A stretch of DNA of 64,000 nt, from contig NZ_CP017415.1 in NCBI RefSeq assembly GCF_001753245.1, positions 1 through 64,000 on the forward strand. The letters run 5' to 3'. Positions 10,646 to 12,314 of the stretch are shown in pieces; the first letter of the stretch is position 1, and every line of letters starts with the position of its first letter. A program made the position numbers and the translations under genes. The stretch is from Acidihalobacter yilgarnensis. Its GTDB lineage: Bacteria; Pseudomonadota; Gammaproteobacteria; DSM-5130; Acidihalobacteraceae. Under the pieces are notes generated by a model, which was given only the letters and a program-made list of their open reading frames with translations, ran no database searches and was not told the origin of the DNA.

Positions 10646-10792
10646 ATGCGCCGTCTCGGCTTGGTGCTCACCGGTGTTTGGTTGCTGTTGACCGGATTGA
10701 GCTCGCTTGTGCACATTCGTTTCGAATATCGCGAATTACTAATGTCAGCTCTTGCAGTAGTTGCGGGTATTCTGCTGATCGTACAGCGCTAA
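10646..10792 (+). CDS. Small two-helix membrane protein, unknown function
   Basis: A 48-residue product made almost wholly of two hydrophobic segments (about 4-20 and 28-46) separated by the polar HIRFEYRE. The short hairpin topology suggests a small inner-membrane protein. TAGGAGG at 10635-10641, five bases before ATG 10646, is a near-perfect ribosome-binding site and decides the start; a longer frame from 10550 is unlikely. I do not recognise the family. It stands alone between ubiD and the riboswitch. Confidence 0.65.
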   Translation: MRRLGLVLTGVWLLLTGLSSLVHIRFEYRELLMSALAVVAGILLIVQR

Positions 10793-10869
10793 TAGGCCGT
10801 TCGTCTGCCATTTCACACCATTTATCCAGAAGCTTGCCATTGGGCTCGGTATACGCTTAACATCCATAG

Positions 10870-10956
10870 TTCTAATAAGGGCAAACTCGTCGAAAGGCGA
10901 GGACGCAAAGCCAGGGGTCTAAAGCTCAATGGAGCCATGACAGCCGGTTGCCACGG
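10870..10956 (+). promoter_or_regulatory. Cyclic di-GMP-I (GEMM-I) riboswitch aptamer
   Basis: The hallmarks of the GEMM-I aptamer are present in order: GGGCAAACTCG, a P1 stem CTCGTC/GGCGAG capped by a GAAA tetraloop (10886-10901), the near-invariant GACGCAAAGCC at 10902-10912, CTAAAGCTC with its partner GGAGCC, and the closing ACAGCCGGTTGCC. The class binds the second messenger c-di-GMP and controls the downstream gene. It lies in the leader of the secreted protein at 11071, about 115 bases upstream of its start. Confidence 0.9.
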
Positions 10957-11000
10957 CGGAATCAGCACTGATTCCGAGTGAATCATGCGACTCACTGAGT
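10957..11000 (+). promoter_or_regulatory. Probable expression platform of the c-di-GMP riboswitch
   Basis: Directly after the aptamer, CGGAATCA-GCAC-TGATTCCG (10957-10976) forms a perfect 8-bp hairpin, followed by a weaker AGTGA...TCACT pairing (10977-10981 with 10992-10996). No U-run follows, so control of translation or of Rho access seems more likely than intrinsic termination. Which state c-di-GMP favours cannot be told from sequence. Confidence 0.5.
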
Positions 11001-11070
11001 GCGGCAGCGGATGACGGGCGCTTGGTCTTGAGACTCCCTACCGATAAGTAGGATGATGAGAGAGCTCGCG

Positions 11071-11415
11071 ATGAACCGATTTGGCGGTGTACGAGTCTTG
11101 CTATTGGCTAGCTGCCTAATGGTGCCGTCGTTGGCATTGGCGAGTACGCAGCTGGATCAGCCGGAAAATAATTGTCTTACCTGGACTCTGGTTGGGACGA
11201 AGACCCGGTCAGTAAACCCTCAGTTATTGATTGATACGATCAGCAGTGCTCGCGGGACGGCTTCACCTGCCAGGGTGATGGGTTACACGCCGGCACGTCT
11301 AGGATTTTATCTGGGGCCAGCAAACGAACCACCGGTTTCAATCGTGGGCCAGGATTTCAGGCAGGATCTTGCAGGTAGAATCAAATACGGATTTTATCTC
11401 GTCAGTACGTTCTAA
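11071..11415 (+). CDS. Small secreted protein under c-di-GMP riboswitch control, unknown function
   Basis: A 114-residue protein with a clear Sec signal peptide: MNRFGGVR followed by a hydrophobic stretch ending LALA-STQ (cleavage near residue 23). The mature part is about 90 residues with one Cys (NNCLTW) and no motif I know. Starts at 11053 or 11056 are in frame, but only 11071 places the signal peptide correctly and has GAGAG at a suitable distance. The riboswitch points to a role in the motile-sessile switch, such as pilus, matrix or surface adhesion. Its end overlaps the convergent transporter gene by four bases. Confidence 0.75.
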   Translation: MNRFGGVRVLLLASCLMVPSLALASTQLDQPENNCLTWTLVGTKTRSVNPQLLIDTISSARGTASPARVMGYTPARLGFYLGPANEPPVSIVGQDFRQDLAGRIKYGFYLVSTF

Positions 11416-12314
11416 AATCCATCCGCACGCCGGCGGAATGGATGGCTGAATCCAACGTTGGTTAGGTAGACGCCAGCGATTACCAAGCCACCTCCGACCA
11501 GAAGCGATCCGTCGATCGACTCCCCAAGCATGAAATGCGCCAGTGCGATTGCGCTGATCGGCACAATATTGATGAAAATGCTGGCGCGTGTCGCGCCAAT
11601 TTTTTTGATCCCCTGGTAATACCATACGAAGCCCAGTGCAGTGCCGGCAATGCCGAGGTAGGCTAGATTTGCCCAATCCAGAATCGAATAAGTCCACATG
11701 TTGTGAACAGTGCCAGCATAGAAGGCAGGCCAGGCGAGCAGTAGCGTGCCAGCGATCGACGAATAGGTAACCGATGCTAAGGGTGAGAGGCCCCGCATAA
11801 GCTGGCGACCGAGGAGCGAGTAGGCGACCCAGCTCAGTAGGCAAACGAGTATATCTAGCGTCCCGCGTGGTAGCGCCCCCAAAAGGAGGTCCGCGGGTCT
11901 GCCGTGCGAAATGACTAACAGCGCACCGGCGAGAGAGATTGCAATTCCAAAGAGACGGACTGGTCCGAGCGGTTCGCGCAATAGTAGCCAAGACAACAGT
12001 GCGATCACGGCAGGATTCATCGCGATTGTGGCGGCGGCCCGCCCGGCCGCGAGCGTTTCCAATGCCCTGAAGAAGAAAAGGTTGTAGGCGAAGACCCCGG
12101 TCAATCCAAGCAGAATAACGGCAAGCAACTGGCGGATCGTCAGTCGAGGTAAGCCACCCTCGCTGAACTGCGCGAAGACGAAGAGACCGAACGACGCGAA
12201 TAGGAAGCGGATGAAGGCGGCCGATGCGGGCTCCACGTGTCCGGAAAGCAAGCGTCCAGAGACGAAAGTGCCGCCCCATATGATCGCCATGGCAACAAGT
12301 TTAAGGTAGGTCAA
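11412..12314 (-). CDS. EamA/DMT-family membrane transporter
   Basis: A 300-residue inner-membrane protein with about ten hydrophobic helices in two repeated halves, typical of the drug/metabolite transporter superfamily (EamA). Family-like features are IIWGGTFVSGR in helix 1, AAFIRFLFAS in helix 2, and the second repeat with TAFGFV-type and INIVPISAIALA-type segments near the C-terminus. The substrate cannot be predicted; relatives export amino acids, metabolites or drugs. It is convergent with the riboswitch-controlled gene and is followed upstream on the same strand by the SDR gene. Confidence 0.85.
   Translation of the reverse strand: MTYLKLVAMAIIWGGTFVSGRLLSGHVEPASAAFIRFLFASFGLFVFAQFSEGGLPRLTIRQLLAVILLGLTGVFAYNLFFFRALETLAAGRAAATIAMNPAVIALLSWLLLREPLGPVRLFGIAISLAGALLVISHGRPADLLLGALPRGTLDILVCLLSWVAYSLLGRQLMRGLSPLASVTYSSIAGTLLLAWPAFYAGTVHNMWTYSILDWANLAYLGIAGTALGFVWYYQGIKKIGATRASIFINIVPISAIALAHFMLGESIDGSLLVGGGLVIAGVYLTNVGFSHPFRRRADGF

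Follow-up and report, generated by a model that had tools for sequence, protein, structure and literature searches.

A. yilgarnensis carries a GEMM-I riboswitch aptamer, which sequence comparison supports well as genuine and ordinary, directly ahead of a gene for a small exported protein. It lies in the 64,000-nucleotide stretch analysed here (the window; positions 1 to 64,000 of Acidihalobacter yilgarnensis contig NZ_CP017415.1). We consider it probable that this riboswitch, with a promoter of its own, controls that one gene, whose product is restricted to the bacterial family, and that it is an ON switch acting on translation, with a surface role for the protein. In the mechanism we propose, c-di-GMP would bind the nascent leader, the folded aptamer would alter access to the ribosome-binding site, and high c-di-GMP, as in the surface or biofilm state, would lead to more translation. 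The mature protein, predicted to combine a variable central region with a conserved C-terminal beta-sheet portion, would be exported to the periplasm or beyond, where it may aid surface life as a matrix protein, an adhesin or an envelope component.

The aptamer and its transcript

An earlier reading of the letters alone (the preliminary description) had proposed a well-formed GEMM-I aptamer followed by a perfect 8-bp hairpin and by a single gene ahead of a convergent one, and each of these features was recovered (Table 1). With cmscan, the aptamer matched RF01051 over model positions 1-87 of 87 with 83.5 bits and an E-value of 5.8e-15, far from the poor covariance score that was to be looked for, the curated cut-off being 35 bits. 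It was the one match when the whole window was searched against Rfam, and the only RF01051 match in the 3,566,941-base A. yilgarnensis genome. Families beyond the RF01051 clan gave no score at these positions, even with permissive filters.

Table 1. Features of the riboswitch locus, in window coordinates
Feature	Position	Strand	Remarks
Promoter-like pair TTGCCA-18-TAACAT	10834..10863	+	Consensus scan
c-di-GMP-I (GEMM-I) riboswitch aptamer	10870..10955	+	RF01051, full length; contact equivalents kept
8-bp hairpin CGGAATCA-GCAC-TGATTCCG	10957..10976	+	First element of expression platform
Region able to pair with or around Shine-Dalgarno (CTCCCTACC...GTAGGATGATGAGAGAG)	11028..11068	+	Tentative
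Gene for 114-residue exported protein	11071..11415	+	Signal peptide ~1-24, mature ~90 residues
Conserved C-terminal part (ARLGFYLG...GFYLVSTF)	11296..11412	+	Predicted three-stranded beta-meander
EamA-family transporter gene	11412..12314	-	Convergent; bounds transcript; outside the system

The contacts between the Vc2 aptamer and c-di-GMP have been listed (PMC4744006), and by our own mapping of the Vc2 numbering (G20, A47, C92) their equivalents in the present aptamer are G11, A38-40 and C83, which all four Acidihalobacter species retain, along with the GAAA tetraloop. Vc2 G20 is a factor in selectivity between different cyclic dinucleotides (PMC9262584), and its equivalent is a G in each of the four. 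As these contact equivalents and the selectivity G are kept in four species, c-di-GMP is the expected ligand. We regard as very unlikely the alternative that the aptamer is a GEMM-Ib type sensing cGAMP: Geobacter has cGAMP-selective GEMM-I variants (PMC8835794) and related, same-clan families overlap the aptamer, but these score lower than the top match, RF01051, and the G at the selectivity position speaks against it. The ligand itself should be made, since the A. yilgarnensis genome contains 51 matches to the GGDEF domain.

The aptamer resembles the RF01051 family in its full-length match, conserved core and tetraloop and is otherwise typical, but differs in showing no evident P1 helix in three of four species. 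By inspection, the outer P1 helix could form one or two pairs at most in A. yilgarnensis and two congeners, and the flanks of the A. ferrooxydans aptamer hold a possible P1 pairing, GGUAG/CUACC. In the window, the flanks at 10860-10885 and 10945-10960 leave P1 barely there, and the transcript appears to begin right at the aptamer. The promoter-like pair stops six bases short of the aptamer, and its elements 'CTTGCC' and 'TAACATCCATA' are identical across A. yilgarnensis and two congeners. Because these conserved boxes end just 5' of the aptamer, transcription probably starts almost exactly there, the spacing placing the start near 10869-10871.

Only one gene is expected on the riboswitch transcript, since the convergent EamA transporter gene overlaps its 3' end by 4 bp. 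The gene has an in-frame ATG upstream at 11053; the start codon is probably the one at 11071, because in one congener the orthologue begins at the position corresponding to 11071. Just past the stop codon, an inverted repeat at 11418-11444 reads as a terminator of the convergent transporter gene, with its T-run on the minus strand. On the other side, between ubiD and the riboswitch, positions 10646-10792 encode a probably membrane-embedded protein of 48 residues (MRRLGLVLTGVWLLLTGLSSLVHIRFEYRELLMSALAVVAGILLIVQR), well conserved in two congeners and not seen at that place in A. ferrooxydans, for which the DUF308 match was sub-threshold only.

Conservation of the riboswitch and its exported protein

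We compared five genomes of the family, namely A. yilgarnensis (G000), three relatives taken as A. prosperus (G001), A. aeolianus (G002) and A. ferrooxydans (G004), and a fifth, G003. All four Acidihalobacter genomes hold an orthologue of the gene, those of the three relatives being 60, 56 and 33% identical to the window protein, and directly upstream of each relative's orthologue lies an RF01051 aptamer (82.0, 80.7 and 68.7 bits) that, as in A. yilgarnensis, is the sole match of its genome. The preliminary description had counted homologues without the riboswitch against its proposal; all four orthologues carry it. The locus sits just after ubiD in the four genomes. In G003, ubiD is present (84% identity) with an antiporter-like gene after it; both the aptamer and the exported-protein gene are missing from that genome. 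Thus, with the pair present in four of four Acidihalobacter genomes and both members missing from G003, the sequence comparison indicates that aptamer and gene are inherited, or lost, as a unit.

Outside the family, a profile search of 369 sampled genomes of the class returned no homologue; two further matches in that set were at chance level, contained stop codons and were discarded. The collections of species genome contigs, plasmids and viral contigs likewise yielded no homologue outside the family, and a profile search of the A. yilgarnensis genome gave no paralogue. By its sequence distribution the protein would represent a lineage-specific family restricted to acidophilic halotolerant bacteria.

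The protein is small and basic. The preliminary description of a secreted product with a mature part of about 90 residues and no recognised domain agrees with what we found, namely a signal peptide and, in searches of Pfam, NCBIfam and PDB sequences, no match. Residues A22 and A24, invariant among the orthologues, fit an AxA motif at the cleavage site, which was placed by eye. Both the signal peptide and the central stretch of the mature protein vary, and across congeners the last 40 residues hardly change at all (dN 0.04-0.11). The dN/dS ratio was 0.11 between A. yilgarnensis and A. prosperus and 0.17, 0.27 and 0.59 (the last for G001-G004) in comparisons with A. ferrooxydans; with several dS values saturated, it was ~0.1-0.3 in most computable pairs and below 1 in all of them, from which we conclude that the protein sequence is under purifying selection. 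A short frame with no known domain might be no gene at all, or its aptamer a decayed relic, a prospect that we consider negligible. Orthologues at the identities given above with dN/dS <1, aptamers of 69-84 bits in all four species and the conserved promoter refute it for practical purposes.

AlphaFold models built from four sequences were poor for the full-length protein (mean pLDDT 42) and moderate for the mature chain (mean pLDDT 61, with C-terminal blocks at about 75-81). In the latter, strands E53-59, E67-74 and E80-88 form the C-terminal three-stranded beta-meander. With this moderate model, the best Foldseek E-value was 1.1 and the best Z of a second aligner 4.7; kinship to NEIL1/MutM was considered and set aside, the similarity (Z up to 4.7 only) being weak and probably generic. 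Among PHROGs there was one weak match, from one orthologue only (E 0.094), and no adhesin, pilin or matrix signature emerged from the searches of Pfam, NCBIfam, PDB sequences and PHROGs.

Mode and direction of control

The leader continues past the aptamer with the 8-bp hairpin, whose end lies about 95 bases from the gene. A stem this good arose in 23 of 500 shuffles of the first 45 nt past the aptamer. In two congeners a hairpin of different sequence starts at the equal place, and the stems of the three species (8, 6 and 8 bp) were matched by 23, 102 and 17 of 500 shuffles, respectively, which suggests, at the level of sequence, that the structure is kept. Covariation support in the leader was almost nil by RNAalifold with three species, and stems in the tentative pairing region near the Shine-Dalgarno sequence were no better than those of shuffles. 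The hairpin carries no T-run and was ruled out as an intrinsic terminator.

No terminator was found after the A. yilgarnensis aptamer, and the A. ferrooxydans start codon follows its aptamer by ~13 nt, a spacing that leaves little room for one; translational control is therefore likelier than termination. Folds computed with and without the aptamer gave no consistent change in Shine-Dalgarno access across the four species, which, like the lack of an evident P1 helix in A. yilgarnensis and two congeners, counts against the proposed mechanism; simple sequestration of the Shine-Dalgarno sequence was rejected as inconsistent between species and window lengths.

By precedent only, that of Vc1-gbpA in Vibrio cholerae, the switch is probably ON: c-di-GMP acting through Vc1 increases expression of gbpA (PMC4744006), by a mechanism that has also been described as unclear. 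We hold it unlikely that c-di-GMP instead turns the gene off, with the protein made by motile or planktonic cells and its synthesis stopping on attachment. GEMM-I OFF switches do exist, such as Cd1 before a flagellar operon, and in A. yilgarnensis the folded aptamer lowers the predicted access to the start codon at five of five window lengths; this effect was, however, inconsistent in the other three species, and the closest precedent from the gammaproteobacteria in which the target is secreted, Vc1-gbpA, is an ON switch. No c-di-GMP-II riboswitch was found in the five family genomes, by a search that found none in control genomes either, so that this does not prove their absence.

Relation to known GEMM-I systems and possible role

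The Vc1-gbpA system (PMC4744006) shares with the present one a GEMM-I aptamer, an exported target and a gammaproteobacterial host, as well as a long leader with no obvious terminator or anti-Shine-Dalgarno sequence. The two differ in that GbpA is a chitin- and GlcNAc-binding colonisation factor whereas the Acidihalobacter protein has no known domain, and in that direction and ligand response were measured for Vc1 and are inferred for the Acidihalobacter switch.

GEMM-I riboswitches occurred in 49 of 274 sampled genomes of the class. One class relative (G170, with loci such as L047) held 15 c-di-GMP-I aptamers, far above the other sampled genomes. At many correctly oriented loci the first plausible downstream gene had, by a crude criterion, a signal-peptide-like start, as was often so at the gammaproteobacterial loci L020, L049, L050, L051 and L053. 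The name GEMM stands for genes of the environment, membranes and motility, and targets with signal peptides fit it. At L049, from another gammaproteobacterial family, a GEMM-I aptamer precedes a single exported orphan of 109 residues, its frame, on the other strand of that locus, beginning 58 nt after the aptamer; this protein ends in ...SIYFRATF and resembles the Acidihalobacter protein in size, layout and final F. When the two were compared there was no detectable homology, and a profile search found no homologue of the exported protein near the other sampled gammaproteobacterial GEMM-I aptamers. The Acidihalobacter case thus has the usual architecture, its only novelty being the riboswitch target.

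By analogy, a role of the protein in adhesion, matrix or mineral attachment is plausible; it derives solely from what GEMM-I riboswitches often control, because no sequence or fold match indicates a function. The more specific proposal, that this is a new small secreted family dedicated to attachment or matrix in saline ore-leaching bacteria and the sole target of their only c-di-GMP-I riboswitch, is one that we advance as speculative and rather doubtful. We give somewhat more credence, still short of thinking it likely, to a periplasmic or envelope-stress factor that is not itself directly involved in attachment and that c-di-GMP merely times to sessile growth. The lack of any adhesin, pilin or matrix signature favours such a factor, as does a small, basic protein confined to acidophilic halotolerant bacteria; the results as a whole neither speak against it nor place it above a matrix role.

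In Acidithiobacillus, c-di-GMP is reported to control both adherence and biofilm formation (PMC5852609, PMC4331095), and a full-text search of the literature found no description of a c-di-GMP riboswitch in Acidihalobacter. One riboswitch and one exported protein, kept in four of four Acidihalobacter species, point to a specific and testable output of c-di-GMP signalling. If the protein were indeed dedicated to attachment, this would be the one output under RNA control in a genome that encodes about 50 domains of the diguanylate-cyclase type. Attachment to minerals favours bioleaching, and the exported protein may help these salt-tolerant, ore-leaching cells to live on mineral surfaces.
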